Below, piece by piece: positions 5,095 through 48,091 of a stretch of DNA of 64,000 bases. This stretch comes from Neocallimastix lanati (nom. inval.) (Eukaryota > Neocallimastigomycota > Neocallimastigomycetes > Neocallimastigales > Neocallimastigaceae), in the NCBI GenBank assembly GCA_016946835.1, contig JACVTC010000042.1:392501-456500 (forward strand), given 5' to 3'. The stretch's first letter is position 1. Every line of letters starts with the position of its first letter. Position numbers and translations under genes: made by a program. A model generated the notes under the pieces. That model saw nothing but the letters and a program-made list of their open reading frames with translations. It was not told the origin of the DNA and did not search any database.

Positions 5095-5137
5095 AAAAAT
5101 AATTATCAATATTTTAATTATAATAAAATAAATATTA

Positions 5138-5168
<31 letters not shown>

Positions 5169-9240: not shown

Positions 9241-9479
9241 AGAAAAACCATAAAAATGAAGAAAAAGATTTAAAAACATATGGTTTAGTGGAAAAAAATA
9301 ACTTCCAAACATGAAGAAAGTGACAGTGAAAGAGATGATAATTTTGAAGACATCAGACCATTATGTGAACCACGTATTAATGATGCTTTACTAATTGAAT
9401 CAATAAATGAACCATATATTATAGATAATACTGAAAAATCTGTAAACATAATTGAAAGAAATATAGAAAGTAATGAAAC

Positions 9480-10800: not shown

Positions 10801-10804
10801 TTTA

Positions 10805-14985: not shown

Positions 14986-15417
14986 TTGTGGGAAGTATTT
15001 AATTGAACAAGGAGCGGATGTTAACAAAAAGAATAAATATAATGATACCTGCTGAAAAAGACACGAAAATGTTGTGAAATATCTGATTGACCATAGGGAA
15101 AGTATTAATATAGAAAATGAATATAGAAGATCCCCTTTATATATAGAGTGTCTAAAAAATAATGTAGTCATTGTAAAATACTTAATTGATCATGGAGCCG
15201 ACGTCAACCAAAGTAATGCATATTGCGATACACCTCTTGTAATAGCAAGCGATAATGCAAATGAAACTATATTTAAATATTTAATTGAACATTGCGCAAA
15301 TGTCAATAAAAAAGAGAGATATGGCAATACTTCTTTGTAGGTTGCGTATAACAACAAATGTGAATCTATAGCAAATTATTTGATTGCCAATGGCGCAGAT
15401 GTAATTAGTAAATAGTA
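14986..15417 (+). pseudogene. Ankyrin-repeat protein remnant
   Basis: Four to five ankyrin repeats can be read: KYLIEQGADVNKKN, then VVKYLIDHRESINIE, IVKYLIDHGADVNQSN, IFKYLIEHCANVNKKE and IANYLIANGADVISK. The frame has an in-frame TGA near 15054 with a short deletion and TAG at 15338, so no complete protein is possible; 15074-15340 is the longest open part. Ankyrin repeats mediate protein binding. Large ankyrin families are common in anaerobic fungi, which fits the host guess. The upstream part of the gene is missing. Confidence 0.8.
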
Positions 15418-17265: not shown

Positions 17266-20200
17266 ATGGAAATTGATAATGAATATGAAATTATCAGTGA
17301 TAATAACTTAGATCATGACAGTATGCAAATGGAAGATAATAAAACTATGAATTCTAATCAAGAAAATGAAAATATATCATTGGATAAAATGACCTCAAAG
17401 AAAAAATTAATTCAATTAATCAATACGATGGAAATAAAGAATAATGGTGAAATTCAACAAAAATATTTTGTCGCTGAATTTATGAAAAACAAGAATATAC
17501 TAGAAAAATCAATTATTAAGGATTCCTATTTACCTAAAACGGAATGGTATCATTTGAATATTAAGAATGATGGCATCCAGGTTGCTGAAGATGAAAATTA
17601 TTATGAAATAGTATTGATTCGTATATCGGATCTTACACAGCCTATCGATTATTTTAAAGAGCTCATTAGAAAAGAATATAAACTCAATGAAAAAATGGAA
17701 GAATTGTATGATATTTCACCAAAGTTTAAGGGATTTTCTATTTCCAAAACTAAAGTAGTTTCGGTATTTTTCACTTATCCATACACCACTTTAACAGAGT
17801 ATGCTAAAAGTAATAGTAAGAAAGAAATTGTACAAGAATTGATTGATAAGCTTGAATTGATCCATCCAGAGGAGGAACAATGCTTTCTTACTCCTACTTT
17901 ATCACCTAATAATATTTTATGGTGTGAAAACGGAATGTGTTCAATTATTTTTCCAGAGATTTTCACATCCATTGATTCATATAATGATATTATTAAATTT
18001 AAAAAAATTCCAACCTCAAGTTGGTTTTCTCTCGATTTCCTTAAATTAGATGAGTCCAACAAGTGTACATTATCTTATCATTCTTCTCTTCAATCTTTTG
18101 GTAATATCCTCCACTATTTATTGACTGGCTCAGAACCTCCAAAATCTAAAGAAGAATGGGAAAAGTTTTTTACTGCTAGCTCTAATGATAGGGAATACAA
18201 TTTTTTCAGAGATATTTTAAAAGAATATATCTATCCTGAAATGAATAATTTAGATATTAATAAAAATTCATTGGAAAAATCAGAAGTCGTTACTTTCTCT
18301 ACTCTTCGTCAAATGATTGATCAAGCCGACCCTACTATTTTCGAAAAACCTATTCAATCTAATATTTCTTTTAATAGTTCACAAAATCTATCGGAAGATA
18401 TTAACTCAACAAATAATGGGTTATCTGAGAAATCTAAATCATTGGAACAAACAAATATACCAACTGAAGTTTTAAATTACATTTTTGGTGATGAATCTTC
18501 GAATTCAAATATGCTTAATACTAATGATAATACTAATGCTAATCCATCCAATATAAGTTCTTCATCAAAAGAACCAATAGTAGAGAGCATTGAAAAGAAA
18601 ATTGAAGATGAAAATGAAAATGATAAAAACAAGAGAAGTAAAAATAAGTCAAAAAATGACAGTAAAAATGAAGATATTCCATTCAGTGTGCCCGATGATA
18701 AATATCTTGATGGTATTGTTTTTGAGGGAATTAATAATAGTAAAAAAATAGGTATTATTTATATTCATGTAGATGTTATCTTAAATGATCCCACAGAATC
18801 TGATATCGAAATTTATGACATATACAGACCTACTGGTGAGGGCTATAAATTACTGAAGTATGAAGATGATAATGGAAATGGAACCAAATATTTTTCAGTA
18901 GTACCTTTCTACTGCTATAATGGAATGCAATCAATAGTTTTTGGGGTAAGAAAATATCCCAGTAGAAGAAATATAACTTTAAGGAAGCCAAAATCATCTG
19001 CTGATAACAATAGATATGAAATTGAATTAGAGGATGAAAAAATTGATAAAGATTTAAAAATTTATAATCCGATCTATAAAAATGAACTAGATTATTTCAG
19101 ACAAATATCTTTAATAAACCCAAAAAATTTTGAATATTCCTATAAACGTCTACATCAATTATGTGAATCATTACCTATTAATAATTTAGTAGATATAGTA
19201 TTAAAAACAGGATTTAACAATTTCACTAGTATTATTATTAATATCATTGGAAATAGAAATTACTCATTGAAAGATATCTCTCACTATATTGATAGTACTT
19301 ATAAGGTGAGTTCAGAAGAATATAAAAATGCTCCAAAACTAATACGTGAATTGTTTCAAAGAAAAGATGATACAGGATTAGACAAGAGAAATAATGAATA
19401 TAATCATGCAATAGCCGTCGGTGATAAAAAAAATAAATTTCTTTGCGACTTAGAAATTTTTAATTTTGAAAAAGAAAATACAATTGATAAAAGAGATATA
19501 ATATCTGAGACCATCAATAATTTAAATTCTAATAAAGCGAATTTTCTCAATTATATCAATGAAGAATACTGTAAAAATAAAATAGAAGAATATAACAATT
19601 CTGAAGATGGAAAAAAGAAAAAAATATATCTGATTCAGTCCCCCGAAACTTTAAAAAAGATTAAACAAATTTCAGCAGGAATTCTCTCAAATATTCCATT
19701 AATTATTCAGGGTTTCACCTCGGCAGGTAAAAGTTTTATTTCTATTGCTGGTACTGTTATTATTAGAGGTCAGTATCCGGTAACTACAGCTCTTTCAGAA
19801 AATACTACAGTGGAAGATTTACTGGGTAGACCTATTTTACAAAAAAATGGCTCTTCAATGATGACCTTTGTTCCTGGAATATTATTGAATGCTTACATCA
19901 ATGGTCAGACTCTTATTCTCGATGAGTGTGATTTAGCAAAACCAGAAGTACTTTCTTGTATCTTGGCATCCATTTCAAAGGATGAAATCGTCGTAAATAA
20001 TACAGTGTACAAGAAAATGAATGGTTATAACTTAATTTTAACCATGAATGGAGAAGCTGAAGGATTCACTAAGAATCAAAGAAATGAACTTACTCCCAAT
20101 ATTTTATCCAAATTTGTCATTGTTAAGTTTGAAAAAATGAGTCAAAAAGAATGTAAACATATTTTTAGTGAATTAATCTCTGATTCTGACGGTTATAAGA

Positions 20201-23200
20201 AATATGTTAATGATTTCGTGAGTCTCTATGAAAAAATGCTGAATTACAAGCAAAAAACAGTAGATCCTATTGTCACTCTTCGAAACTTAAAGGCATGTAT
20301 TTATTTATCGAAAATTAATGTACCTGTAAGGTTTTCTGCTGAGATAGCTTACACTCGAAGATTCCCTAAAAATGAAAGAGATGACTTTAAAAATATTCTA
20401 CAAAAATTTGGAAGTGATGAGATAGACCATGACATAAAAAATGATATTATTCAGAGATTAAAGATGAATAATTTATATTATGATGAATCATATGTAAAAT
20501 GTGCCTATTTAGCATTGGCAGCATGCAAAGCTGGACTCCATCCTTTGATTATCGGTAAAAATGGATCAGGAGTAACCGAATTTGCCAAGTTTATTGCACA
20601 TAATTATACCTCGAATAAGGATACATTTTTAATTGATAATCCAAGAAATACAATAGAAATTGTTCAACTTGCCTTGGAAACCTCAGTAGATGATTTATTG
20701 GGATGCTTCCAACCCAGTATAGATACCAATATTGAAAAGAATGATAAACCATCAGAAAATGGAATTGACTTAGAGAACATTATTACATGGGTTGATGGAC
20801 CGATTTTAAGAGCTGGAAAAAAAGGAAATCCTGTAATATTGGATAGAATAGATGGTGCGAAATCCCAGGTTATTGAATGTTTAAATCCATTATTAGAAGA
20901 AAACTCAGTCTTTAACAATGTTCAATTCAAATTAATTGAAAAAAATAATAGTGAACAAGTTGATATTGGTAAAGGATTCATCGTAATTGGTACTATGGAA
21001 ATGAAAGATGGAAAAGAAGTGATATCGAAAGCTTTAATGAACAGATTTGTAGCAATAAATCTTGATGATTTTGAATTGAATTCGGTAGCCATTGAAAAAA
21101 TAACAGATATGACTATAAAGAAACTTAATTGTAATTATCAAAAATGTAATCAAACTAACATTAATAATGAAAATTCAAAAGAAAAAATTGAAAAACCGAA
21201 AGAATCAAAAGCGAAAAAAGGTATTCAAATTTTTGATTTTTTATCTAGTGAAAGTGAAAGTGAAAGTGAAAATGATGAGGAAAGTGATAGTGAAAGCAAC
21301 AGTCAATATGATTCTGATGATGATCTAGAAACAGAGCAAGATATTCCATATTGGTATAGAATTAATAATTTTGATGATGTGAAAGTAAATGAGATTTCAA
21401 AATTTATTATTGATGAAAAGTTAAAGTTTGATAATCTTAAATCACTGGTAAAAACTATTACTAAACTATGTTATATTATTCAACGAACCGAATTAGATAT
21501 TTCTGACGCCTATAATCTTTTATTATTAAATGATGAAGCTTATAATATAGATGGTGATTTAACTTCAAAAATGTTAAATAGTGAGGATAAAAATATTAAA
21601 AATAGATTTTTCTTTAATAAAAGTGAAAAAGGAAATGCTCTGAAAATGATCTTATCTTTAATATCCTGTGATCTTTCCCATTCTCCAATATTTATTCAAG
21701 GTACATCGGGTACCGGTAAATCAGTCGCTGCTAGACATTACGGTGCCTATAGAAAATTCAGAAATAGAGATCCTATATTAACAATTAATTGTAATTCGGA
21801 GATATCATTTGAACAATTCATAGGATCTTTTAATTTTAAGAATACATCATTCCAATTCGCTGAAGGTCCATTGTTAACCGCAATGAGAAATGGTGAGCCA
21901 ATTCTTGTGGATGAAATAAACTTATGTCCTGAAAATATATTACTTATCTTACTTCCATTATTAAAAGCAAATGAAAAGGATTTTGTTCAATTAAAAGGTG
22001 TTCCATATCCTGTTCAAATTAAACCTGGCTTTCTATTCATTGCTACGGGAAATGATGACAATGAATCTGGTAGAAAGAAAATGCCTCAATTAATACTAGA
22101 TGAATTAACAACTGTGAAAATTTCAAATCCAACACAAAATGAGTACCTTTCATTACTTAGAGAAATTATAAACAATGAATATGAAGATATTAAAGAATAT
22201 ATAATTCCCGAAAATATTTATGATATTGTTAGGGTAGTAGAAACTGTTGCTCAACAAAATTTCTCTTTAAGGCAAATTAAATGTTTATTGAATAGAATAG
22301 ATAGATTCTGTGCAGGAATATTAACAGATAAGGTAATTTCAAATGAAGAATATAAAAAAATACCCGTGGCCTATGTAATAATCAGCTTTATAATTCCAGG
22401 TTTGAAGATTGGCCCTAAAAGAATAAAACAAATAATAAAAGAAATTGCAAAGATTACTAAATTCAAAAGTGATGAACTATTGAAATTCGTAAAATCTGAG
22501 GTTTCAATTGTTTCAAGAGAAGAAAATAAATTTTTCGTTAAAAAAGGTAAAATAATTCTCTCAACGTCCTTAAAAAGAAATGATTACCCACCCACAATGA
22601 AACAAATATATTTTTGGATACGTATGTCTTGTTCATTATATTCTGATACACCCTCACACGAATCTTTACTCTTAGAAGGACCAACCTCATATAAATCATA
22701 TCTATTGGAAAATTGGTTAGAATTATCAAATGGAAAAGACTCTTATGAAGAACATTTTGTTAATAAGAATACTGAAACACAAGATTTAATTGGTCTTTCA
22801 TCTCTGGATGACAAAGATAAATTATCCAAATTGATCGATTCTCATATTGAAAAAGCCTTACGATATTTGAGTAAGAAAAGAGAATACTTTGAAGGAAATC
22901 GAGAAGAAAAATTGAAATTGATTGAAGATGAATTAAATATTGGACGGAACGGAAGAATAAAGAATAACGAAAACAAATGTTTAGCTTATATTTTTAGGTG
23001 TATAGAGGAATTAATAAAACTGGAAGAAAATTATGATAAAAATAAAGGAATAAAAACGGTAACATCATTCAATTTAGGTATAATACCTTCTGCTTGTATA
23101 TATGGTCAAAAATTAATTATTAAAGGAATAGATCAAATATCACCATCTGTAATTGAAAGAATAAATTCGGTATTAGAGTATCCTAGAAATCTTGTACTTA

Positions 23201-26200
23201 CAGAGGATGCTCAGGGTATATTTAATAATCAAAGAATTTTTAAAGAATTATATAGTGATAAAGGTACAAAAAAAGGAAGTATTCCAATTTCCAATAAATT
23301 TTCAATATTCTTTACCTCAAGAGAAATATTTAATGGAAAATTATCAGAGGCTTTTAAATCAAGATGTACCATAATTAATTGCCCCTCATATGACAATAAA
23401 CTATACCTTGGTATATCATTGAATCCATTAGAAAATTACCGTTGTATTGCTAAAAGTATTATTCAAGAAAAGGATGAACTTTATGAAAAATTAATTGAGC
23501 TATATGAAAATATTTGTTATAATAATTACAATATTCATATACTTTCATTTATAAGATGTTGTCATACAGTAAACGGTATAAGTAAACATATAGAAGATAC
23601 TAGTGCAAAACATATTGTAGGAATTGCTGCCTTAAGAAGCATATTTGATGGTTTTGATCCATATATGAGGAATAGAGTAATTAATGAATTATTATTGGAT
23701 TACTTACCTGAAAATTTAAATAAATTATTAACTAATCAATCCCAAGACATTGATTATGATTCTCCATTTATATTCGAAAAAGATGGAGACGACATCATTT
23801 ACGTAAAATCTTGCTTTAGTAACATTAAGATACAAGTATTTGAACCAAACATCGCCAAAATGAAAGAGATTGTGTGGACCAAATCAGCAGCAGATATGGC
23901 AGATGCGATTTTAACCTCATTAGTTGCTCATGCCATGCAAATATTTGAAGGTCCACCTGGAATAGGAAAGACAAAAATTCCTCTTACTATTTTTGAAGCC
24001 CTTGGTATAAATTATGAAAGAACTAATTTATCTAATTCTACAACAGAAGAAGATATATTTTCTAGAACCATTCCTGTAATTGATGAAAATAATAATATTA
24101 AAACTAAAATTTTGGAAGGACCATTATATGAAGTTCTTAGTAATAGTTCTACATCCCAAGAACATTGCAGAAATGGAATAATTATAGATGAAATTAACTT
24201 ACTGTCAGATGAAGTATCGGATCAATTATGTTCCTATTTAAATTCAATATTTTATAAGGAAGTGTATCATACCTCTCAGGGAAAAGATTATAAAATTGGA
24301 AATATTGCAGTTGTTGCAACAATGAATGATGCTAAGTTATCTAATGCTAGAACTACATTATCGTCAACTCTTTTAAACCTAAGTCATACGTTTAAGGTAC
24401 CTAATTTTAAACCAGAAGAAATGAAAATCTTAACTGAAAAAATATTAGGAGGAACAAAATTGTTCTCTAATAATAAAGAGTATTTAATACGTGCTATACA
24501 ATGTTTTTTAAATTCTCAAAAATATATTAACAATCAAGCAGAAACTGGCGGAAATACATTGAGAGAAATATTGAAGCTGAGAGAATTTACAAATAAATGT
24601 CCCGATGTTCCTCTTGATACATTACTAGATTTAGTATTATGTTCCAATATGTCAGAGAAAGATGCATCTAATTTTAAAAATGAAAACAATATTATTACTA
24701 CTCTTACTAATATAGTACCAGAAATAAAGGATAATAAACTATGCTTTAAAAATTTAGTAAATTTTAATTTAATTAAACCAAGATATGATGGCCAAGTCAA
24801 TAAACAATTTACATTACCTGAAAAAAATGCTCTACTGAAAATTCTTATTGGTCTCAACGCTAAAAGAACAATACTATTATCAGGGGATATCGGTTCAGGA
24901 AAAACATATGTTGTGGAAGCATTGGCGGAAATAATCGGTGTAAAATTAAATGTTATCCAATTTAACTCGGAAACTTCCTCATCAGATATCATAGGAAGAC
25001 TTGAAATGAGTGTAGATTCCAATAAAGTTTTAGATATTAATAACCAATTGAATGAATTAATTAGACTATTAATAATGGATGAATGGCTTCGAGTTACTTC
25101 ATTTATAAATTTAATAAGAGATGGAAATATTAATTATAAAAAATTTAAAGAATTTTTTGAGGGTTTAATTATTGATTATCCATTAAGTAAGGAAGCTATA
25201 GAACAATTAAAGATATATTTTAATACCTTAAAAGATTTCTCTACATTATCTTTCACAAGTTTCGAATTTAAAAAGTCCTTATTAATTAATGCCATGGAAA
25301 ATGGTGAATGGGTTTTAATTGATGATGTTAATTACGCTCCTCAAGAAATAGAAAGACTAATGTCATTACTTGAAGAAAATTCTTCATTAACAATATTTGA
25401 ACAAAATCCACCAGTGATATATTCAAGAGATCCAGTAAAGTCTACAGATTTAATTAAGAATAAGCAGATACATGAAAACTTCAGACTCTTTGTAGTTACC
25501 TCTAATGAAACTGCGTTGTCAGCAGCCATCAAATCAAGATGTTTATGTGTAATGTTAAAACCATTTGAAGAACCGAAACATTATGCAGAACTCATATCAA
25601 GTCGTTTGTCGAATTCATTGATATCCGATGATTACATTACTTCAATAGCTCCACCTATTGGAAAGGCATTCCATGATGTTAAACAACATGAAAAAGAAAA
25701 CGATTACATTATTAGTAACTATTTATTAACACCTGTTAATATAGTACATCTTACAAAGTTTTTAGCTAATTCAACAGGTATTGATGGTAAAATACTTTCG
25801 GAAGGTATTTATTACACTATATTTTCCATGTTTAAGAATAAAAATGAACAATATGAAAGATTTAAAAATTCATTATCAAGTGACATAGATTTCAATATTA
25901 CTACAATTAACAGAATAATAAAGGATAAAAAGTATATTTTGGGCAAAATTGAAAGGAAGATTTTAGAATATGCTAAATTATTATTAAATGAAAAACATAA
26001 AAATAAAATAATTAATCAACAATTAGATGAAATATTTAAAGATTTATACAAAAAGGAAAGAATTTCAAAAGTAATAAATATAGTAGATGATAAAGAAAAA
26101 AATATTTTAAACTATTTCAAAAATAATAGAAATGAATTGATGAAAAATTTAGAGTCATTTTCATTAGGAGATATTGAAGAATATAGTGAATATATTGATG

Positions 26201-29200
26201 AAGTTTTATATATAATGAAAAAATTGATTCCTAATGAAGAAAAGATACATAGTATAATATATTACTTAAAATATTTTAATTCCCTATTAAAAGAATTGAT
26301 TTCAATTGAAAATACAAAAATTAAAGGATTAAAATTATGTACTATTAAACATACAAAAGAATACTTTAAGCAATTTGGAGATTCTGAAGAAACGGCAGAA
26401 GATAGTGCTAGAAAAATATATTGGTTTAGAAATGCTATTAATGGATTTAATTTTCTTGTTCCTGAAAATGTTTCAGTCATAAAATCAAAGATATCAATTA
26501 TTTCTATATACTATATTTATTACTTGAAGGAATTTGAGCAATTAAAAAATACTACGAAAATAGATAATTTAAAAAATCAATATATACATTTAAAAATGTT
26601 AGAAAATATTAAATTAAGAGAAATACTTAAAAATTTCAAAATTTCTCTGTTAGATAAAAATATTCTCAAATTATTTAATATTTTGGTGTACTATACTAAA
26701 CCAATTTCTGTAGAAATTGGTGAATCAGCCAATGAAGAATTAACTATTGAAATTAATCGAAGTATCGTTAAATTAAATGAAAAAGAATATAATTGGAATA
26801 AAACTGATGATATTCAAGACCTTTCAAATGAATTAGGTATAAATAATACAAATAATGATGATAATAAAGGAGAAATCAAAAAAAAAGATTACTATAAAAA
26901 GAATTTGGATTATATAATTCCAAATAGTATAAAAATCAATAATGAAAAAATATCATGGGGAAATTTGTTTTGGTTTTATAAATTATTTGCTAGAGATTAT
27001 CTCCAAAATAATATTATAAATAATGGAATGCTCTGTGAGTTTAATGATGCCATTGAATATATATTAAAGATTAATATATTTAATTTAAAAACTGAAAATG
27101 GAATATGGGATAATGAATTGGAAAATATAATAAATAAAGGATATCAATTAATTTATTCTCTACAATATTTAAAAAACAAAATTTGGGAAGACTCAACTAA
27201 TGAAGATAAGAAAAAGAATATAAAGGAATTTATTAAAAATATTATGAGTATCAAGAAATTATCAGAATTATTTATAGCATGTGAATCAGAAATTCAAATT
27301 ATAAAGAATATAATTAATACTTCAACTATGATTATAGAATACTTTAATAAGTTCAAATTTAATATTTGGGAAAACATGAATATTTTTATAAATACTTGTC
27401 AATCATATATAGAAGAGAAAGAATTAGAAGAAAAATTTGAAAAGGAAAAAAGAGAATACGCTCGTGAATTAGATAGAATTAAAAATAATATCAATAATAT
27501 AAATAATTCAAAAGAAAATCCAAATTTTAAACCGTTATACTATCAAATAAATAAATTGAAAAAAAATTTAAATAATATGGATAGTAGTTATATTAATAAT
27601 GAAATCAATGAAATATTAAAATTAGTAAGTATGTTTAAAAGAGCGAATGAAAATAAAGTAAAAAATCAAAATAAATCAAAAATATTACGATTATCCAACC
27701 ATAATAACAGTGATTTATTGAAATATTGCAAAATATTAAAAAAATACTCTGAACTTAATAGCCTTATTAATAAAATGAAAACAATCAATGATCAACAATT
27801 ATTTATAAATATTATGTTTAGATATAGTGATATTTCTGAACTTGATAATTTTACTGCAGTATTTAAAAACTTACTTACAACGGAGTGTGCTAATAACGAA
27901 CCGGTTTCGAATAATTTAATACTAGAATTAAAATATCTCTCAAATTCATTATTAATTATTGATATAATAAAAACATTTAAAGATAATTATAATGAATATT
28001 TTAAATTTGTTAATGCTTTTCTAGATGGTAATTTAGATTGTATAAGAACTATTGGAGATAACTTTGGAGATGATGACCACATATATTTACCAAAATTTTA
28101 TATAACCGATTTAAAATACTGTGTTAAATTTGGTACTCAAAAAACATATTTAATAAAAGTATATATTAACGAAGAAACAATTATTCGTGAACCAACATCA
28201 GAAGAAACACCAGAAGATTACCTTAAATATTTAATTTCATTATGTGGCTTTAAAATTGAAAATTCACAAAGTGTTAATGAAATAATTAATAATATTAATA
28301 AAAACAGTGATTCAAATAATTTAAAAAAATCAGTAAATAATTTACTCATAGCATTTAAAATAATAGAATATTCAAGCAACATGAAATATAGCTTTGACTC
28401 TGATTGGTTAAAAATTAATAACATTGATGAAATGAAAAATAAATATTGGAAAGAACCAGGAAAAATTATTATCAAAAAGAAATTTAATGAGTTACTTCAA
28501 TTTAGCAATGAAAATCAAATATTTAATGGAGAAAAAATTATAGCTAAATCATTATATGCAACATGTGAAGCCAAAGAATTAATTGAAATTCAATATAAAA
28601 ATGAATTTGGAAAAAAATTTATTACTGAAGTATTACGTGACATATGTAAATCAAATACAGATTATGATTATGGTTATAGACTTATTTCCTTTTATAATAA
28701 AAATATTTATAAAGACAATGTTGCAGAAACAATGGTTATAATAGTATACACTATATTAAATTATCTAGAAACAAAAATCAACAAAACATGTTTAGATTTA
28801 AGAAATAATAACATCAGTAGTATTCTTAAATGTACACTTCAAAAATTTATAGTCGAATGTATTGAAAAAGAAATACCGAAATTTAATAATAACGAATTTA
28901 TTAATATTATTGAAGTATTATTAACAAATATAAATAGTGCATATAGAAATAAATTTGAAAAAGAAAAAACTAATTTAAAAAATAATATTAGTACAAATAA
29001 AGAGGAATATTTATTAATTATTTCGGAAATTGAAAACAAAGTATGTTCTATATTAAATGAAAAAATTAGTCAATTTACGAATGACTTAAATGAATATAAT
29101 AACAAGATAACAGAATTAATAAGTAAATATAAAGAAGAAGGTTTCTTTGAAAAAAGATGGAATGATATTAAGAATATAAAAAAAAATTTGGAAGATAAAG

Positions 29201-32200
29201 TTAAAGAATATTATAAATTCAATAAAGAAAAACCGTTTGATTATAAATATTATGAAAAGTTACAATCATTTCAATCTGAATGTGAGATTTTAAAACAAGT
29301 AAAAGAAATATATGATTCAGATGAAATAAAAAATATTATAATAAATGATAAAAAAATAATTAAAATATCAGAAGAAGTAAATATTGACGATCACTATATT
29401 AATAAGTATAATAAATGTAAAAATGAATTTAAAAAAAATTTAGAAGATTACTTAAATTTAAATCAAGAAAATTCAGATATTGAAAACATCATAAGAAAAG
29501 TTCAAATTCAACCAAACGTTTTTAAAAAATTTAATATTGATGAAGAAATAAAAAGATTGGTATTATGGATTAAAGAATTATCAAAATGTAATATAGATAT
29601 GAAGATATATAAATTTAATGAAAATTTATATTTTTCTAAAAATTTTAGAGTAGAGATTGAAAAGTCTTCAAAAATATATTCAGCAAATAATAATTGGATA
29701 TTCAATAAAGAAAATGCACCAAAATTTTTACTTGATACTATTAATTTAAATTTAGGAATTTATATTTTGGAATACACTGATGTAAACAAAGTAGGTTCTC
29801 TTTCATTTGATAACAGTTGCTCCTACGAAATTAAATATAAATTGGAACAAGATGAAAAAAGTGTTATTTTGGCATATCCATCCGAAAAAAAAATACCTTC
29901 AAATGAACCAATGAATATAAATTTCAGATTAAATAAAAGTCTAAATAAGAATGAAACTATTAAATCGGAATTTATTATCAAATTATTAAACAACAATAAT
30001 GAAGAATATGATGAATGTAAAGTGATGGTATATTTAAATGTAATTCCATTATGTCTAAAGTTCAAATTAAATGAAAAATATAATATTGAGAAAAATGGTA
30101 TCATTAACATCAATCATTATAATAGTTTGCTTGAAATCGAACATCAACATCCCGGAAATTATTCATCCAATTCTTTAGGAATTATGATAAGACCAAATAA
30201 AGAAAACAAATATAATGAAATAGATATTAAACAAGAGCAAGGAAAGATCATTTCTAATTTGAAAATGGCATCCAATAAATTACAATGTTCTGTTAATGTT
30301 GATATCCATATAAATAAAATGAAACTTTTGAATTTAGTTCTCAAATTTATTACACCAACAAATTATGGCCTTATTATTTATGATGAAAATGGAAAGAATA
30401 TTGAATCAATTGAGCTATACAATGAGAATACTAAAGTCTTTTATTTATTTAATATGAGTTATTCTCCAATTTCTATTGATTATCATTATAACAATAATAA
30501 AATTAAATTTTCTAATGAAATTAAAAATATGGAACCAGGAGAGAGAAAGAAATTAGAATTAACAATACTTGATAGTTTTGATTCAGAAGAATTACAAATT
30601 AATGGTAAAAATATTACTATTAAAAATTTTTTATTACCAAAATTACAAATAGAATATTATTATTATAATTATTATTATTGTTGTAGAATACAATATTCTA
30701 ATTTAAGTAAAATTATTCAAGATAAACTTAAATTTGTAATAATAAATAGTAATTATGAATTAAATGAATATAAATATAATGATTGTCCCTTAATTAAAAA
30801 TAATTATTTAAGTAGTGAAATTATATCATGCTATTTAAAATTTAATAATAAAATTGATGAAAATCCATTAGCTAAAAATAATATATATAATAAATTCACT
30901 CATCATAATAGTTTGGTTTATGGTTTCAAAAATGGTGAATTCAAAATTAATGCAAAAATCAATGATGTAGATATAGCATTAAAATTTAATTTAAATTATA
31001 ATTTTAATCATATTTTTTTATTAGATCAAATTAAAAGATTTTCAAGCATTATAAACGAATTTGAATTTAAAACAAAACTACAAAGTGATAACATAGAAAA
31101 TATAAACAATTCAATTCAAAAATTATTGCAATTGGAAGTCCAACTTACTAATGAAAATATATATGAATTTATAAATAATCTTATAGTCACTGATGAAAAA
31201 ACATCTATAAAAAATATAATAAAGCATATAATTAAATATTCAAAGGAGTATACAACTAAAATATTAAAAGAAAAATTAATGCGTTGTTTAGGTATTATGT
31301 ATAAAAGAAAAATATTAATTCCTTATTTCGAAGTTAATCAAAACTTGGAAGCCAATATGAAACAGTTCTTAGAAAAATTAAGTTACATTATTAGCTTTGT
31401 TGATATTGTAGTAAATCCAGGTATTATAAATAACCAAATTATTAATTATATTAATAATACTAAATATAATAATGAAACACAAAATAAATTGGATAAAATT
31501 AATAAAGAATTAGTTGATGATTTTGAAAGATGTTTTAGAAATAAAATTGGAATAGATAAAGAATCGTCAGATTTAATATATTATGACAATAACATATTTA
31601 AATATAGAAGTAATGACATATTCGAAAAACTAAGTAATCAAATAAAAGATTCTATTAAACAATATGATAATAATAACTACAATAAAGAAAAAATTAGTGA
31701 TTTTATTCAGACCTACAAAGAAGAGATTAAAGATACTTTATATAAAATAACTAATGATGATGTTAACATCTCAAATTTACTAAATATATTAGATAAATGT
31801 GTCGGAATAATTATTAAATTCCCATTAATATTTTCTACAAATGAAAATGAAGAAGATCTAAATTATTGTATATCAAAATGTCAAAATATTTTTTATTTTA
31901 TTAATAATTTATTACATTCACCCATTAATAAAACTGATTTTTCTGAACGAATATATTCATCGTATAATGAAGTTAAAAATATTTTATCAAATTATCCATT
32001 CTTTGATTTAAGAACTAACGAATTAAGAACTAAAGATAAAAAATATAATAAAATTAAATCAGTCATTCAATGTGAATTACCGTCGGATAACAGTTACGAA
32101 AATATTTTATTAGAAAATAAAAATACTCAAGAAAATGGTAATCAATTAATTTCTGATTATTATAATAGTACTACTTACAGTAATACTTCTCAATACTTTT

Positions 32201-35200
32201 CAAAAGATACAGAAAATTATAGAAAAGACTTTTCCTATAATTTAAATAGTAATAAGGAAAAATATTTTGAAAGTAAAACTAATGAAAAGCGTAAATACAA
32301 AATTGAATACTCCACTATTCTTACCAACGAAGAAAGAGAAGCCATTTCCATTCCATTTTTAAATGATAACGTTGAGAAGACAAACATTAATAAAGAGATA
32401 AATGATTTTAATATAAATGATATAATGGATTATGAAAATACTAATAAAGAGAAGACGATTTCCATGAATATATTAGAAAGTAGTTTAGAAAATACTACTC
32501 CAACAAAGTTTTTAGAAATGATAATGGAAAAAACAACTTATAAGAATCAATCTTTATCCGAAATTAAAATATCAAAATTAAAAAGAAAAGGTTTATTTGA
32601 TTTAAAATTATTTGATTACTATGATGAATGTTCTCAAGTTTCATCTTTTATACAATCTACAATGTCAAATTCTATAAAATCAAATCTTAAGTTTATTGAA
32701 AATAATAAAATATTTCCTAATAGTATTTTAGACAGTTTCGTCGATATTGCAGTTGACATTACCCATATGTCCCAAATTCAAAGAATTACCGCACTTATCA
32801 TTGCAACTGGTATATCTCTTCCATTATATAATTATGGAGTTCGTATTAGAATTTCGGTGTTTGGAGAAAGAAATGGAGTTTGGATTTTATCAGAGGATTT
32901 TTCTACAGATATAAATATTCAATTAGCAAGATTGAGAGATGCCCTTGCCTGTAAAAAAAGGTACATGTCATTCCCAGGAGATGCATTATATTCTTTAAAG
33001 CAAAATTGGATTAAAAATTTCAATACTTCAGAAACAAATTACACCTCTGTATTAATATCATCATTAATATCTCCTCAAGTAGTCATAAAGCAAACAAAAT
33101 GGAATATTATTTCTAATAATATTGTAGTCTTTGGATTAAAATCAGAATTTGATGAGGAATTTAAACGTCAGCATAGGGTTTACGAAGATTTACTTCATAT
33201 TTCATCCACAAATAAAAATCAAATTGTCCAACAATTTTTAGAACCAATGAAAGTAGTTGGTCAAGATGAATCAGAAAGAGATAAACTTGAGACACTTTGT
33301 AATTCCTTAGTAACTTCTTGTATCTATCCTTCGAATAAAAACGATAACTTCAAAGCCTATGAAATTTTATTGAATCGTGATACGGTAATTAATGAAGTAC
33401 ATCCATTAAATAAGGTGACCAGTTTCATACATAATAATATGGAAGATAAAGTATTCTTTGCCCAATGTATTCCACAAGTGAATACAGATATTTCTAAAAT
33501 TAATGAAAATTTCACTCGTCCTGACATAAAACTACCTGCTATAAATGAAGTCCAGCTGAACATTCAAATGAATGATAATAGTTCTGTAGGTAGTCTTAAA
33601 AATACGGTGGGATTAATTTTACGATCTCAATTTGGATTGGCATTTTCTCCCAATATTTCTGCAGGTAAAGTACCATCAGCATCAGGAGGTACACTTTCAA
33701 TACCCGCTTTGAAAAAATGGATAGTATCAGGATTCACTTATAAAGAAATATTTTTGAAAAAAGCAAATAAAACTAAGAGAAAGTACTCCATCACTATTGC
33801 CATTGATTTTTCATCGTCTATTCATTTATCCTGTAACTATTCTCATGCTATTGCCACTGTAATATTACTATTACTAGCTCCTTCCACTATTCAAGATAAT
33901 GAAGAAATAAAAATTGACGTTGTTGTCAGTACGCGTAATGGTCCAAAAATCATGTTTTTGTCATCGAAAGTTAATACATTCGAGTCTCTTGCCTGTCTCA
34001 ACTCTATTATTAATGTTATTGATAAAGAGATTCCAAAATATTGCACACCAGGAAATACTCTAAATGCTGCTTATCAGTTGGAATTACAAAAAGGTGGTGT
34101 TGGTATGGGTAAAAATATTTTCTTTATTACTGATGGTTATGTCACTTCCAAAAAAGAAATTATGTTTACTAATTCGATTATTAAATCATGTGAAAATGCT
34201 GGAATCGATTTAATAACTTTTGGCGTGGGTTCTTCGCCTTTCGGACTAAAGCAACTCTACCCCAAATTCTGTTATGCTCCCTCTCTCAGGGTGTTAGGTG
34301 ATGCACTTGTATATTTATACTCATTAACTAATGATCCAGTAAGTAGTGAAATTAAATCACAGGTAGTCATCGATCAGGTGTCTGAAGAAATTCAAGAGAA
34401 ACTCCGAGAAATGATTAAGCAACCACCACAAAATAAAGAATTACAACATAGTATCGAAAATAAAAAAATGAACTATATTGAAATGATGGGAAATAATGAT
34501 ACTATGACTATCAGTGATGGTATAGCAATTCTTAATAAGAATCCTGAAATTGAACCCTATCATGATGGATTATATAAAGGATTTAAAATTTTAGTAGTCA
34601 TCTTATACCTAGGAGGATATAAATATCAAGGAAAGATCAAAGACAAAGATATTACAGTTAATCAATTTGAAAAAGGCGCTGGCTGCTCATTAAGAAAAAA
34701 AGGATTTGATTATAAAATGGTGTTTAGCTACGGTGAGGCCATTGAACAACTTACAAAGTCAGAAGGTGGTCGATGCCCATACATTGAAACATGGCTATTT
34801 TGTAGTCGAGGTGATGGTTCATTACCATGGTGTGCCAAAGATATCAATTCTAATAAAATTATTCCATTCCTCAAATGTTTATCAGAATTTAATAGTAAAG
34901 GTGGAGGATTACTACTATTTTGTGATAATGAACCTTACACTCTAGAAACAAATTTATTAATTTCTGAATATTTAAAATTTGAAGACGAGTATGGAAATAA
35001 AATTAGACCTAAATTTGAGATGAAAGGAAATTACAATCAACCTGATTTCAATAAGAAATACATTACACCTTTAAAACCTAACCAAAGTAAAAATGGAAAA
35101 TTTAAACCTGAAATTAAGCTTCCACCTCCTGGAAAATGCAATGATAGATTATCTCTTAGACCTGGTTTAATAAAATTCAATGAAGGAATTACTCTCTCCT

Positions 35201-36096
35201 ATGCCGAATGTCCCAATGGCCTTAATGATTACTCACCATTTATACCTTTTGCGTACTTGACAGATATGAAGAAGGAACGACCATTTATATTGTACTATGA
35301 CCCAAAAATGAAGGCTCAAGCTCAAGCGATTAATCAAGGTCCCATAGTTATACATGGTGGATTTACTTCAGCATTTTATGATTTCAAATTCGATGGAACT
35401 GGTAGATTGGTTACTTCAATAGCCTGCTGGCTTGTTAGATATGAAGAAAGATTATACCAACAGATTCATGCAGACAAAGATATGAATATTGAAATGGTAA
35501 AAAATATACCTGCAATAGATATTCCAGATGATGTAAATGAAAAGTTTACTAAATGGATTAAGCCAAAAGGATTATCTTCCATATATTCTATTATGATTTT
35601 AGATGTTTCAGGTTCTATGAAAGGTTTTTACAGTTCACTAATTGACATGACTAATTCCATTATTCTTAATCAAATGAATAATAATAATAATAATAATAAT
35701 GGAACCGTCATATTCTTTGGTACTAGTGCAAAAGCTGTAATAATTAATAATTACAGATGTTTATCAGTAAATGATATATCTAATGCTCATGTTGGTGGTG
35801 ATACTAATTTTTATAATGCTTTTAAAGAAGCTACATCATTCATCAATCCAATTGGTAATTATGATGATAAAAGACTATTATTTTTGACAGATGGAAAAGA
35901 TAATGGTAATAGAAATATTCTTCCATTATGCAATCAAATATCAAATGCTGGTTTTTCAATTCATATTCTTGGATTTGGAAGTAGGCAATATTTTGAACAT
36001 TTAAGATCATATGTAAGAGGAAATGGAACATTCCAAGTTTATAATGATTTCAATGATATTTCAACTGCAGCAAAGTTAATTTTTGCTGCAGAATAA
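17266..36096 (+). CDS. Giant kinase-like/hexa-AAA+/VWA protein (midasin/dynein-type ring)
   Basis: One intronless frame of 6276 codons; the start is the first ATG (AACAATAAAATGG) after a stop-rich leader. Residues ~60-350 look like a degenerate protein kinase (LSPNNILW at 212-219 in place of the catalytic loop). Six AAA+ modules follow. Walker A sites: GFTSAGKS (816), GKNGSGVT (1097, Lys lost), GTSGTGKS (1479), GPTSYKS (1805, shortened), GPPGIGKT (2229), GDIGSGKT (2540). Walker B DE appears in modules 1, 3 and 5, DR in 2 and DD in 6. An acidic Ser-rich spacer lies at 1327-1358. Residues ~2750-5120 are Asn/Lys-rich helices with beta-rich segments (~4126-4446). The C-terminus has a degenerate VWA (~5160-5340, DITHMS), a VWA with DFSSS (5514), a Rossmann/amidotransferase-like part (~5760-6070) and a VWA with DVSGS (6113). 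Six AAA+ plus C-terminal VWA resembles midasin (ribosome assembly), but length, N-terminus and extra C-terminal domains differ. The function is unknown; a mechanical remodelling ATPase is inferred. Confidence 0.93.
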   Translation: MEIDNEYEIISDNNLDHDSMQMEDNKTMNSNQENENISLDKMTSKKKLIQLINTMEIKNNGEIQQKYFVAEFMKNKNILEKSIIKDSYLPKTEWYHLNIKNDGIQVAEDENYYEIVLIRISDLTQPIDYFKELIRKEYKLNEKMEELYDISPKFKGFSISKTKVVSVFFTYPYTTLTEYAKSNSKKEIVQELIDKLELIHPEEEQCFLTPTLSPNNILWCENGMCSIIFPEIFTSIDSYNDIIKFKKIPTSSWFSLDFLKLDESNKCTLSYHSSLQSFGNILHYLLTGSEPPKSKEEWEKFFTASSNDREYNFFRDILKEYIYPEMNNLDINKNSLEKSEVVTFSTLRQMIDQADPTIFEKPIQSNISFNSSQNLSEDINSTNNGLSEKSKSLEQTNIPTEVLNYIFGDESSNSNMLNTNDNTNANPSNISSSSKEPIVESIEKKIEDENENDKNKRSKNKSKNDSKNEDIPFSVPDDKYLDGIVFEGINNSKKIGIIYIHVDVILNDPTESDIEIYDIYRPTGEGYKLLKYEDDNGNGTKYFSVVPFYCYNGMQSIVFGVRKYPSRRNITLRKPKSSADNNRYEIELEDEKIDKDLKIYNPIYKNELDYFRQISLINPKNFEYSYKRLHQLCESLPINNLVDIVLKTGFNNFTSIIINIIGNRNYSLKDISHYIDSTYKVSSEEYKNAPKLIRELFQRKDDTGLDKRNNEYNHAIAVGDKKNKFLCDLEIFNFEKENTIDKRDIISETINNLNSNKANFLNYINEEYCKNKIEEYNNSEDGKKKKIYLIQSPETLKKIKQISAGILSNIPLIIQGFTSAGKSFISIAGTVIIRGQYPVTTALSENTTVEDLLGRPILQKNGSSMMTFVPGILLNAYINGQTLILDECDLAKPEVLSCILASISKDEIVVNNTVYKKMNGYNLILTMNGEAEGFTKNQRNELTPNILSKFVIVKFEKMSQKECKHIFSELISDSDGYKKYVNDFVSLYEKMLNYKQKTVDPIVTLRNLKACIYLSKINVPVRFSAEIAYTRRFPKNERDDFKNILQKFGSDEIDHDIKNDIIQRLKMNNLYYDESYVKCAYLALAACKAGLHPLIIGKNGSGVTEFAKFIAHNYTSNKDTFLIDNPRNTIEIVQLALETSVDDLLGCFQPSIDTNIEKNDKPSENGIDLENIITWVDGPILRAGKKGNPVILDRIDGAKSQVIECLNPLLEENSVFNNVQFKLIEKNNSEQVDIGKGFIVIGTMEMKDGKEVISKALMNRFVAINLDDFELNSVAIEKITDMTIKKLNCNYQKCNQTNINNENSKEKIEKPKESKAKKGIQIFDFLSSESESESENDEESDSESNSQYDSDDDLETEQDIPYWYRINNFDDVKVNEISKFIIDEKLKFDNLKSLVKTITKLCYIIQRTELDISDAYNLLLLNDEAYNIDGDLTSKMLNSEDKNIKNRFFFNKSEKGNALKMILSLISCDLSHSPIFIQGTSGTGKSVAARHYGAYRKFRNRDPILTINCNSEISFEQFIGSFNFKNTSFQFAEGPLLTAMRNGEPILVDEINLCPENILLILLPLLKANEKDFVQLKGVPYPVQIKPGFLFIATGNDDNESGRKKMPQLILDELTTVKISNPTQNEYLSLLREIINNEYEDIKEYIIPENIYDIVRVVETVAQQNFSLRQIKCLLNRIDRFCAGILTDKVISNEEYKKIPVAYVIISFIIPGLKIGPKRIKQIIKEIAKITKFKSDELLKFVKSEVSIVSREENKFFVKKGKIILSTSLKRNDYPPTMKQIYFWIRMSCSLYSDTPSHESLLLEGPTSYKSYLLENWLELSNGKDSYEEHFVNKNTETQDLIGLSSLDDKDKLSKLIDSHIEKALRYLSKKREYFEGNREEKLKLIEDELNIGRNGRIKNNENKCLAYIFRCIEELIKLEENYDKNKGIKTVTSFNLGIIPSACIYGQKLIIKGIDQISPSVIERINSVLEYPRNLVLTEDAQGIFNNQRIFKELYSDKGTKKGSIPISNKFSIFFTSREIFNGKLSEAFKSRCTIINCPSYDNKLYLGISLNPLENYRCIAKSIIQEKDELYEKLIELYENICYNNYNIHILSFIRCCHTVNGISKHIEDTSAKHIVGIAALRSIFDGFDPYMRNRVINELLLDYLPENLNKLLTNQSQDIDYDSPFIFEKDGDDIIYVKSCFSNIKIQVFEPNIAKMKEIVWTKSAADMADAILTSLVAHAMQIFEGPPGIGKTKIPLTIFEALGINYERTNLSNSTTEEDIFSRTIPVIDENNNIKTKILEGPLYEVLSNSSTSQEHCRNGIIIDEINLLSDEVSDQLCSYLNSIFYKEVYHTSQGKDYKIGNIAVVATMNDAKLSNARTTLSSTLLNLSHTFKVPNFKPEEMKILTEKILGGTKLFSNNKEYLIRAIQCFLNSQKYINNQAETGGNTLREILKLREFTNKCPDVPLDTLLDLVLCSNMSEKDASNFKNENNIITTLTNIVPEIKDNKLCFKNLVNFNLIKPRYDGQVNKQFTLPEKNALLKILIGLNAKRTILLSGDIGSGKTYVVEALAEIIGVKLNVIQFNSETSSSDIIGRLEMSVDSNKVLDINNQLNELIRLLIMDEWLRVTSFINLIRDGNINYKKFKEFFEGLIIDYPLSKEAIEQLKIYFNTLKDFSTLSFTSFEFKKSLLINAMENGEWVLIDDVNYAPQEIERLMSLLEENSSLTIFEQNPPVIYSRDPVKSTDLIKNKQIHENFRLFVVTSNETALSAAIKSRCLCVMLKPFEEPKHYAELISSRLSNSLISDDYITSIAPPIGKAFHDVKQHEKENDYIISNYLLTPVNIVHLTKFLANSTGIDGKILSEGIYYTIFSMFKNKNEQYERFKNSLSSDIDFNITTINRIIKDKKYILGKIERKILEYAKLLLNEKHKNKIINQQLDEIFKDLYKKERISKVINIVDDKEKNILNYFKNNRNELMKNLESFSLGDIEEYSEYIDEVLYIMKKLIPNEEKIHSIIYYLKYFNSLLKELISIENTKIKGLKLCTIKHTKEYFKQFGDSEETAEDSARKIYWFRNAINGFNFLVPENVSVIKSKISIISIYYIYYLKEFEQLKNTTKIDNLKNQYIHLKMLENIKLREILKNFKISLLDKNILKLFNILVYYTKPISVEIGESANEELTIEINRSIVKLNEKEYNWNKTDDIQDLSNELGINNTNNDDNKGEIKKKDYYKKNLDYIIPNSIKINNEKISWGNLFWFYKLFARDYLQNNIINNGMLCEFNDAIEYILKINIFNLKTENGIWDNELENIINKGYQLIYSLQYLKNKIWEDSTNEDKKKNIKEFIKNIMSIKKLSELFIACESEIQIIKNIINTSTMIIEYFNKFKFNIWENMNIFINTCQSYIEEKELEEKFEKEKREYARELDRIKNNINNINNSKENPNFKPLYYQINKLKKNLNNMDSSYINNEINEILKLVSMFKRANENKVKNQNKSKILRLSNHNNSDLLKYCKILKKYSELNSLINKMKTINDQQLFINIMFRYSDISELDNFTAVFKNLLTTECANNEPVSNNLILELKYLSNSLLIIDIIKTFKDNYNEYFKFVNAFLDGNLDCIRTIGDNFGDDDHIYLPKFYITDLKYCVKFGTQKTYLIKVYINEETIIREPTSEETPEDYLKYLISLCGFKIENSQSVNEIINNINKNSDSNNLKKSVNNLLIAFKIIEYSSNMKYSFDSDWLKINNIDEMKNKYWKEPGKIIIKKKFNELLQFSNENQIFNGEKIIAKSLYATCEAKELIEIQYKNEFGKKFITEVLRDICKSNTDYDYGYRLISFYNKNIYKDNVAETMVIIVYTILNYLETKINKTCLDLRNNNISSILKCTLQKFIVECIEKEIPKFNNNEFINIIEVLLTNINSAYRNKFEKEKTNLKNNISTNKEEYLLIISEIENKVCSILNEKISQFTNDLNEYNNKITELISKYKEEGFFEKRWNDIKNIKKNLEDKVKEYYKFNKEKPFDYKYYEKLQSFQSECEILKQVKEIYDSDEIKNIIINDKKIIKISEEVNIDDHYINKYNKCKNEFKKNLEDYLNLNQENSDIENIIRKVQIQPNVFKKFNIDEEIKRLVLWIKELSKCNIDMKIYKFNENLYFSKNFRVEIEKSSKIYSANNNWIFNKENAPKFLLDTINLNLGIYILEYTDVNKVGSLSFDNSCSYEIKYKLEQDEKSVILAYPSEKKIPSNEPMNINFRLNKSLNKNETIKSEFIIKLLNNNNEEYDECKVMVYLNVIPLCLKFKLNEKYNIEKNGIININHYNSLLEIEHQHPGNYSSNSLGIMIRPNKENKYNEIDIKQEQGKIISNLKMASNKLQCSVNVDIHINKMKLLNLVLKFITPTNYGLIIYDENGKNIESIELYNENTKVFYLFNMSYSPISIDYHYNNNKIKFSNEIKNMEPGERKKLELTILDSFDSEELQINGKNITIKNFLLPKLQIEYYYYNYYYCCRIQYSNLSKIIQDKLKFVIINSNYELNEYKYNDCPLIKNNYLSSEIISCYLKFNNKIDENPLAKNNIYNKFTHHNSLVYGFKNGEFKINAKINDVDIALKFNLNYNFNHIFLLDQIKRFSSIINEFEFKTKLQSDNIENINNSIQKLLQLEVQLTNENIYEFINNLIVTDEKTSIKNIIKHIIKYSKEYTTKILKEKLMRCLGIMYKRKILIPYFEVNQNLEANMKQFLEKLSYIISFVDIVVNPGIINNQIINYINNTKYNNETQNKLDKINKELVDDFERCFRNKIGIDKESSDLIYYDNNIFKYRSNDIFEKLSNQIKDSIKQYDNNNYNKEKISDFIQTYKEEIKDTLYKITNDDVNISNLLNILDKCVGIIIKFPLIFSTNENEEDLNYCISKCQNIFYFINNLLHSPINKTDFSERIYSSYNEVKNILSNYPFFDLRTNELRTKDKKYNKIKSVIQCELPSDNSYENILLENKNTQENGNQLISDYYNSTTYSNTSQYFSKDTENYRKDFSYNLNSNKEKYFESKTNEKRKYKIEYSTILTNEEREAISIPFLNDNVEKTNINKEINDFNINDIMDYENTNKEKTISMNILESSLENTTPTKFLEMIMEKTTYKNQSLSEIKISKLKRKGLFDLKLFDYYDECSQVSSFIQSTMSNSIKSNLKFIENNKIFPNSILDSFVDIAVDITHMSQIQRITALIIATGISLPLYNYGVRIRISVFGERNGVWILSEDFSTDINIQLARLRDALACKKRYMSFPGDALYSLKQNWIKNFNTSETNYTSVLISSLISPQVVIKQTKWNIISNNIVVFGLKSEFDEEFKRQHRVYEDLLHISSTNKNQIVQQFLEPMKVVGQDESERDKLETLCNSLVTSCIYPSNKNDNFKAYEILLNRDTVINEVHPLNKVTSFIHNNMEDKVFFAQCIPQVNTDISKINENFTRPDIKLPAINEVQLNIQMNDNSSVGSLKNTVGLILRSQFGLAFSPNISAGKVPSASGGTLSIPALKKWIVSGFTYKEIFLKKANKTKRKYSITIAIDFSSSIHLSCNYSHAIATVILLLLAPSTIQDNEEIKIDVVVSTRNGPKIMFLSSKVNTFESLACLNSIINVIDKEIPKYCTPGNTLNAAYQLELQKGGVGMGKNIFFITDGYVTSKKEIMFTNSIIKSCENAGIDLITFGVGSSPFGLKQLYPKFCYAPSLRVLGDALVYLYSLTNDPVSSEIKSQVVIDQVSEEIQEKLREMIKQPPQNKELQHSIENKKMNYIEMMGNNDTMTISDGIAILNKNPEIEPYHDGLYKGFKILVVILYLGGYKYQGKIKDKDITVNQFEKGAGCSLRKKGFDYKMVFSYGEAIEQLTKSEGGRCPYIETWLFCSRGDGSLPWCAKDINSNKIIPFLKCLSEFNSKGGGLLLFCDNEPYTLETNLLISEYLKFEDEYGNKIRPKFEMKGNYNQPDFNKKYITPLKPNQSKNGKFKPEIKLPPPGKCNDRLSLRPGLIKFNEGITLSYAECPNGLNDYSPFIPFAYLTDMKKERPFILYYDPKMKAQAQAINQGPIVIHGGFTSAFYDFKFDGTGRLVTSIACWLVRYEERLYQQIHADKDMNIEMVKNIPAIDIPDDVNEKFTKWIKPKGLSSIYSIMILDVSGSMKGFYSSLIDMTNSIILNQMNNNNNNNNGTVIFFGTSAKAVIINNYRCLSVNDISNAHVGGDTNFYNAFKEATSFINPIGNYDDKRLLFLTDGKDNGNRNILPLCNQISNAGFSIHILGFGSRQYFEHLRSYVRGNGTFQVYNDFNDISTAAKLIFAAE

Positions 36097-47715: not shown

Positions 47716-48091
47716 AAGACAACAATAGAAAAGATATGAATCCAGAAGATAATATTATAAATGAAGATAATAATATAAATGAAGATAATAATATAAATGA
47801 AGATAATAATATGAACAATGAAAATAATTTTAATGGAAGAAACATCTTAAATGAAGAAAACATTTTAAATGAAAATATTAATAATGAAAGGACTACTAAT
47901 ACAGAACATAAAAGTAATTACATTAAAAATAAGCATGTCAATAATATATCGTTAAATGAAGAAAATCAAGAATTTGATAATAAAGATATAAACCAGAAAA
48001 ATAACCATAATTTAAATAAAGATGTTGAAATTAATTCTAAAATTAATCCTGAAATTAAAAATAAAAATAATTGTGAATTTAAATTGAAATT
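47290..48091 (+). repeat. Perfect 401-bp tandem duplication inside copia B
   Basis: 47290-47690 is repeated at 47691-48091 with no difference seen. Since 401 is not a multiple of three, the second copy is out of frame with ORF1. Each copy holds the Asn-rich linker start (MKDNNRKDMNPEDN) and smaller internal repeats (NEDNNI three times). Confidence 0.95.

Follow-up and report, generated by a model that had tools for sequence, protein, structure and literature searches.

The window, the whole stretch of DNA analysed here, covers 64,000 nucleotides of the Neocallimastix lanati genome (contig C357, 392501-456500) and contains a complete forward-strand open reading frame (ORF) for a protein of 6276 residues, P0001, which is read in the standard code and requires no intron. 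Its features, with positions in the window, are as follows.

17266..36096, +: ORF of P0001, one open frame, with relatives collinear over the whole chain
17398..18360, +: N-terminal pseudokinase, residues ~45-365
18703..19620, +: pre-ring region, conserved, fold not assigned, residues ~480-785; 56-62% identity over residues 601-900 in P0002-P0008
19621..20463, +: AAA module 1, catalytic by motif (GFTSAGKS, DE), with Lys at the Arg-finger position
20464..21306, +: AAA module 2, finger module without P-loop Lys and Walker B Glu, NRF retained
21610..22452, +: AAA module 3, catalytic by motif, without Arg finger
22588..23430, +: AAA module 4, finger module, P-loop GPTSYKS one residue short
23860..24702, +: AAA module 5, catalytic by motif, without Arg finger, as in most relatives
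24793..25635, +: AAA module 6, P-loop and Arg finger retained, Walker B DD, not DE
25636..32682, +: arm of ~2350 residues (2790-5140) leading from the ring to the VWA block
32734..33240, +: VWA1, with a degenerate MIDAS (DITHM) in fungi
33778..34335, +: VWA2, counterpart of the midasin MIDAS domain (DFSSS, TDG)
34579..35535, +: alpha/beta (Rossmann-like) region in the interval between VWA2 and VWA3, with conserved LLLFCDNEP and PIV.HGGFTSAF; fold unproven
35572..36093, +: VWA3, with an intact MIDAS (DVSGSM, TDG)

The P-loops of P0001 lie at residues 816, 1097, 1479, 1805, 2229 and 2540, the same six positions that had been given in a first-pass annotation of this DNA. That annotation had also read the frame as a giant single-exon protein, and the gene is indeed real, being one open frame with relatives collinear along the chain. 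The opposite reading, namely that the giant ORF is an artefact of several fused genes, a pseudogene or an assembly error, could draw on a decayed C-terminal fragment with internal stops at C710, but it has to contend with collinear conservation over the chain in independent genomes and with two paralogues in the same genome whose frames stay open over 6461 and 7154 aa. We regard an artefact as extremely improbable and as nearly refuted; a chance or fused ORF is ruled out by the same collinear relatives and open-frame paralogues.

The kinase-like N terminus proposed earlier was confirmed as a kinase fold, but its catalytic residues identify it as a pseudokinase. With registers set by eye, Arg takes the place of the VAIK Lys, and Asp is missing from the HRD and DFG stretches, in 7/7 rows of A1; the loss of these three residues rules out an active kinase. 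Sequence searches with residues 1-800 of P0001 against Pfam and PDB returned zero matches.

At the opposite end of the chain, a VWA domain with the MIDAS pattern DxSxS..T..D is present. The extra VWA-like domains had been described as foreign to midasin; the VWA block itself was confirmed. In hhalign comparisons with the midasin MIDAS profile VWA2 reached a probability of 94% over 183 columns (VWA3, 26%; VWA1, 2%). The VWA2 region also matches midasin 6qt8, weakly (E 0.33) in one search and with an E value of 0.001 in another, and DxSxS is found in VWA2 of 25/27 members. VWA1 of P0032 reads DISSSM, and the VIA-align rows are VWA3 throughout. What had been called a Rossmann insert stands as an alpha/beta region with conserved motifs, but its fold is unproven. 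In the C-terminal structure model (mean pLDDT 51, inter-domain parts of low confidence) this region is mostly below a pLDDT of 50, and we therefore name no fold for it. An NCBIfam scan gave sub-cut-off matches only. The arm showed no similarity to midasin linker profiles (probabilities <1%) and no match in Pfam or, as a single-sequence query, among PDB chains.

Copia-type retrotransposon ORFs surround the giant gene, as do ORFs of PD-(D/E)XK transposases and repeats rich in AT; 7 of the neighbouring ORFs were scanned and proved to be pieces of retrotransposons, PDDEXK_2 and ankyrin. One Copia-type element (44635-50675) has two forward-strand ORFs, with gag and integrase in 44635-47715 and RVT_2 in 47712-50675; ~125 codons (by eye) at the end of ORF 1 recur at the start of ORF 2, reflecting either a tandem duplication or an assembly effect. 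A broken Copia copy at 9289-14086 (+), ~3 kb upstream of the giant gene, contains, spread over several frames, an integrase (Pfam) and what by eye are pieces of a reverse transcriptase. Two PDDEXK_2 transposase-family ORFs, near-identical by eye, flank the gene at 5171-6455 (-) and 51960-53207 (+), one being open over 415 aa and the other consisting of two overlapping frames. A short ankyrin-repeat ORF of 94 aa at 15056-15340 (+) is probably a piece of a broken or spliced gene, and a 223-aa poly-Asn ORF at 54907-55578 (-) is a trinucleotide simple repeat.

Alternation of catalytic and finger modules

The ring of six AAA+ modules described earlier was confirmed, but just three of them look catalytic. 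In the module alignment, the odd modules of subfamily A, to which P0001 belongs, carry the Walker A Lys and the Walker B Glu in 31/31 cases each (DE in 30/31) and the finger Arg in 2/31. The even modules retain the Walker A Lys in 22/32 cases, with the short module-4 loop counted as Lys-bearing, and the Walker B Glu in 1/32; the finger Arg is found in all 29/29 with a residue at this column, which is gapped in 3/32. Counts in the 27-member alignment, to which P0027 of subfamily B also belongs, refer to members with coverage: DE is present in modules 1, 3 and 5 of 18/19, 20/20 and 22/23 members (60/62 odd modules) and in modules 2, 4 and 6 of 1/19, 0/22 and 0/26 (1/67 even modules). The corresponding counts for the finger Arg are 1/19, 0/20 and 6/24 (7/63 odd) and 19/20, 21/23 and 25/26 (65/69 even).

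As a control, the same columns in midasin showed DE in modules 2-5 (7/7 each) and in 0/7 of modules 1 and 6, matching the functional pattern AAA2-5 published for Rea1 in the part of PMC6286127 cited here. The finger column is imperfect, since it is gapped in 6/7 midasin module-2 sequences. In the same part of that paper, AAA5 of Rea1 is described as providing the finger for the AAA4 site (PMC6286127), and because of this geometry the complete sites of family A would be those at 1|2, 3|4 and 5|6 only. Subfamily B has the Walker B Glu in 18/24 odd and 0/24 even modules and, in a weaker pattern, the finger Arg in 10/24 odd and 18/24 even modules; Kipferlia has the Glu in 3/3 odd and 0/3 even modules and the Arg in 2/3 odd modules. 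Full alternation is thus a feature of subfamily A.

The short module-4 P-loop (GPTSYKS type) was found in 39 sequences and in P0049 (GPSGFKN, by eye), all with family module 4 as the best HMM, and in none of the 102 sequences best matched by the midasin counterpart. Three of these 102 "full" loops (GDIGTGKT, GPIGSGKT and GEINSGKT) are identical to module-6 loops of truncated family members; for the remaining 99, the best HMM is what marks them as midasin-like. Not all of the 40 short loops are independent, since P0005 and P0006 seem to be alternative models of a single gene.

Relation of the ring to midasin

Among PDB sequences, the ring has its best match in midasin (E 2e-58). Module relationships were analysed in an alignment of 159 modules from 11 A and 8 B sequences, Kipferlia and seven midasins, and the set used for IQ-TREE and the AU test held 90 modules from 15 proteins in 193 columns, with dynein and RNF213 modules left out. 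P0076 and P0044 were likewise left out of the trees, P0076 also out of the midasin profiles; C346 from the same genome was removed as dynein-like, and Kipferlia P0037 was held separate from both sets.

A, B and Kipferlia formed one clade per module position at all six positions (FastTree 0.82-0.998; IQ-TREE UFBoot 99-100), and each midasin module formed its own clade with the N. lanati MDN1 at C654 inside (UFBoot 79-100). Odd and even modules were split across both families (UFBoot 98; FastTree 0.79), the family's odd modules grouped together (UFBoot 97), and in profile comparisons odd family modules scored best with odd midasin modules and even with even. Module 6 of the family and module 6 of midasin were the only such pair in the free tree (UFBoot 77), so partial orthology with midasin is possible. 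Constraining family modules 1-6 to the same-numbered midasin modules was rejected (AU p=0.0046); the free tree (p 0.50), all even family modules together (0.44) and the odd/even split (0.56) were not. Judged from these alignments, the two rings appear to share an odd-even ancestor, and separate or common triplication both fit.

The N. lanati MDN1 at C654 has an open frame of 5543 aa with PF17867 (midasin AAA lid) three times. Scanning the whole genome at E<=0.01, with 4 candidates scored, we found no PF17867 outside C654 and none in P0001 or its paralogues. Nor does P0001 show the D/E-rich region that precedes MIDAS, its maximum acidic share per 200 aa being 21% vs 37-56% in 7 midasins; the range in 10 family members is 17-34%. 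The first-pass annotation had raised the outcome that the modules nest one-to-one inside MDN1 in a genome with no other MDN1. Instead, the tree placed family and midasin modules in separate clades, the AU test gave p 0.0046, and a separate true MDN1 was found at C654. Its proposal of a distinct giant six-AAA ring thus holds for a separate single-chain family, but kinship with midasin stays, as seen in the PDB match, VWA2 and the odd/even module types.

This kinship could also be read as that of a divergent midasin which works in ribosome assembly beside the canonical MDN1, possibly on a specialised pre-ribosome. The top PDB match, the similarity of VWA2 to the midasin MIDAS, the common odd/even module types with the module 6 pairing, and the UniRef name of the Kipferlia relative ("Midasin") all speak for it. 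We nevertheless consider it quite unlikely, given that one-to-one orthology of the six modules was rejected by the AU test, that PF17867 occurs only in a separate true MDN1, that the D/E-rich region is absent, that the set of catalytic sites is another one, and that the arm has no similarity to the linker. A plain MDN1 orthologue is ruled out by the AU test, PF17867, the catalytic-site set and the missing D/E-rich region. By its sequence, P0001 is part of a single-chain six-AAA family of the MoxR/midasin class that is distantly related to midasin and not a member of it.

Family members and their distribution

With the C terminus of P0001 as query we obtained 27 proteins, P0001 included, with its AAA region 353 (of which the best 120 are considered here), and with the C terminus of the Streblomastix relative 31. 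In 300-residue blocks of the 27-member alignment, identity to P0001 was 38-74% in P0002-P0008, which are gut-fungal and close JGI sequences, several of them with part of the low-complexity block 2 absent. For P0009-P0025 it was 17-62% between the start of the AAA ring and the C terminus (blocks at least one-third covered). P0026 (Streblomastix) and P0027 are less identical, with arm values as low as 15% and 13%.

Searches of the N. lanati genome itself (199 Mb, 762 contigs) revealed three A copies, two B copies and one degraded copy. The two paralogues of P0001 are 69-70% identical to it in the C-terminal blocks, and the more distant subfamily is represented by C124 and C268 (26-27% identity). 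A degraded C-terminal-block fragment, 49-68% identical and with internal stops, lies at G000:C710:128249-128952 (-). It is probably a decayed sixth family copy, so family copies do decay.

Subfamily A comprises P0001, sequences from Piromyces sp. E2, P. finnis, N. californiae and Streblomastix strix, an Orpinomyces-labelled sequence (genus read from the label) and many ENA/JGI proteins; subfamily B comprises N. lanati C124/C268, ENA proteins and Tritrichomonas foetus. In a FastTree phylogeny of 40 sequences (4437 columns, occupancy 0.46-1.00, rooted on B), Kipferlia bialata was sister to A, and the fungal B pair was nested in an ENA clade as sister to P0038 (support 1.00). The fungal A genes came out as the sister group of the ENA A clades, which held together as one group with a support of only 0.45, and Streblomastix and two JGI sequences fell outside the fungal/ENA A group (support 1.00). 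Among the matches listed, the named fungi with the family are Neocallimastigomycetes only; family A scores >500 bits, vs 180-207 bits for the other named fungal matches among the best 120 of the 353, many of which bear the name midasin. As far as sequences can tell, distribution and tree fit a horizontal transfer into gut fungi that occurred twice, with another eukaryote as donor; loss elsewhere is the alternative. The contigs of the ENA sequences barely exceed the gene in length, which might point to small chromosomes of the ciliate type. For squalene-tetrahymanol cyclase, PMC7440791 proposes that the anaerobic fungi received the gene by transfer.

Several relatives differ in architecture. 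P0038, an ENA protein and the nearest relative of C124/C268 among the matches listed, has an N-terminal kinase-like domain, followed by repeats that we take by eye to be Sel1-like and then by the AAA ring. In P0029 and P0030 of Streblomastix strix the last VWA is followed by a strong Pkinase domain, whereas the fungal pseudokinase sits at the other terminus. The AAA protein P0076 (eukprot transcript GEMP01000002; 4986 aa), with the short P-loop GPTSCKS, is intermediate between midasin and the giant-ring family and scores with the module HMMs of both; judging from it, the family may extend past the named taxa. We found no earlier description of the family in the open-access PMC literature.

Diverged copies in several per genome (three A, two B and one degraded), the patchy distribution among named carriers, and relatives with kinase domains at either end would suit a conflict or immunity machine, in which a MoxR-VWA-type ATPase switch with a pseudokinase as sensor would act against gut viruses or microbes. 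Bacterial MoxR-vWA couples offer the analogy, having been proposed as thresholding switches in conflict systems in the portion of PMC7159879 used here. We hold such a role to be unlikely: no effector domain is present among the Pfam matches listed, conservation, not rapid change, marks the ring and the C-terminal block, and the 7 scanned neighbour ORFs are pieces of mobile elements and ankyrin repeats.

The named carriers are presumably all anaerobes or microaerophiles, and NorQ and CbbQ are the PDB matches next after midasin. Both points would agree with a chaperone that helps to assemble metallo- or anaerobic-metabolism complexes, much as NorQ/NorD or RavA/ViaA do, of which it would be a eukaryotic analogue. 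A precedent would be NorQD, a MoxR ring coupled to a VWA protein for metal insertion according to the cited parts of PMC13036017 and PMC9976466. We consider this role very unlikely, with neither a client domain nor a genomic link in its favour and with NorQ/CbbQ matches that span a single module and could stem from the general likeness of MoxR proteins.

A candidate mechanism and comparison with known systems

We think it probable, with some reserve, that P0001 is an alternating single-chain hexameric AAA+ motor with an arm, a VWA grip and pseudokinase docking that is separate from midasin, a reading based on its motifs and on analogy with Rea1. By sequence, the odd modules 1, 3 and 5 carry Walker A and B, and the even modules 2, 4 and 6, with the catalytic Glu lost, carry the Arg finger. 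ATP would be bound and hydrolysed at the composite interfaces 1|2, 3|4 and 5|6, each finger coming from the next module as in Rea1, and the ring would form a trimer of dimers, a geometry that we infer by analogy. Module 6, and perhaps module 4, may bind nucleotide without hydrolysis. The cycle would bend the ~2350-residue arm and carry the VWA1-VWA2-alpha/beta-VWA3 block over the ring, a movement proposed by analogy because the arm has no sequence similarity to the midasin linker. For Rea1, the part of PMC6286127 cited here describes ring changes that make a docking site for MIDAS. VWA2 and VWA3, in which the metal-site motifs are kept, would then grip a client side chain and pull the client from its complex, as the Rea1 MIDAS does, and the pseudokinase would serve as a docking or regulatory domain, not as an enzyme. 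Since the cell has a true MDN1, the client is probably other than the pre-60S ribosome.

The single-chain six-AAA rings commonly named are dynein, midasin and RNF213, each of them informative on how asymmetric rings produce force. It is conceivable, at somewhat less than an even chance, that the giant ring is a fourth such class, a covalent trimer of dimers that may owe its origin to its own triplication of an odd-even pair, not to a copy of midasin, and that spread among anaerobic eukaryotes of the gut, having entered gut fungi horizontally at least twice (A and B); the module tree underlying this reading held midasin and the giant-ring family, with dynein and RNF213 outside. The split between catalysis and trans-activation in alternate modules would be a natural experiment, and it predicts three ATP sites at the named interfaces. 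The giant ring also points to a midasin relative in gut fungi and anaerobic protists whose role would lie elsewhere than in ribosome assembly and whose VWA block, by its motifs, looks built for client grip. Taken with the relatives in other gut and anaerobic microbes, its copies suggest that molecular machines of a new class exist, and possibly a case of very large genes (~18 kb) acquired repeatedly in gut habitats.

P0001 resembles midasin in combining six MoxR-class AAA modules, a long arm and a VWA (MIDAS) near the C terminus in one chain, in having the odd/even module types, and in VWA2, which is homologous to MIDAS. The catalytic modules are 1, 3 and 5 in family A, in contrast to 2, 3, 4 and 5 in midasin. 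The family furthermore has a short P-loop 4, an N-terminal pseudokinase, two extra VWAs and an alpha/beta region; it lacks AAA_lid_7 and the D/E-rich region, and its arm shows no similarity to that of midasin.

RNF213, like P0001, has six AAA units in a single chain; in the cited part of PMC7311170 it is described as competent at AAA3 and AAA4 only and as having an E3 module, which differs from the catalytic set 1, 3, 5 of P0001. No RING/E3 family was found in the four Pfam-scanned pieces of P0001 (for the AAA piece, the best 25 of 29 families), and the 11 PDB matches of the ring include no chain of RNF213. RNF213 was ruled out by these PDB matches, Pfam and the catalytic set, and to our knowledge it has no VWA.

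Dynein shares the six-AAA ring in a single chain, and AAA_7 (PF12775), a dynein-motor AAA model, is above its cut-off on the ring (31.5 vs 25.8 bits). Dynein_heavy (PF03028) stays under its cut-off on P0001, no dynein tail family is among the Pfam matches listed, none of the 11 PDB matches of the ring (E<=0.01) is a dynein chain, and the dynein-like C346 of the same genome (label by eye) reaches at best 15 bits with the module HMMs. Dynein as the closest class was set aside on the PDB matches and C346 scores, with dynein modules outside the tree.

NorQ/NorD, CbbQ and RavA/ViaA resemble P0001 in joining a MoxR-class AAA with a VWA, NorQ/CbbQ following midasin among the PDB matches. Bacterial MoxR-VWA couples are separate small proteins whose ring is built of AAA copies, as described in the cited part of PMC7159879. 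P0001, in contrast, is one giant chain with diverged modules, whereas the NorQ/CbbQ/RavA ring consists of copies of a small AAA protein. Rotary ATPases alternate catalytic and non-catalytic subunits, and P0001 would resemble them if, as proposed, each of its three catalytic modules is followed by a finger-only one.
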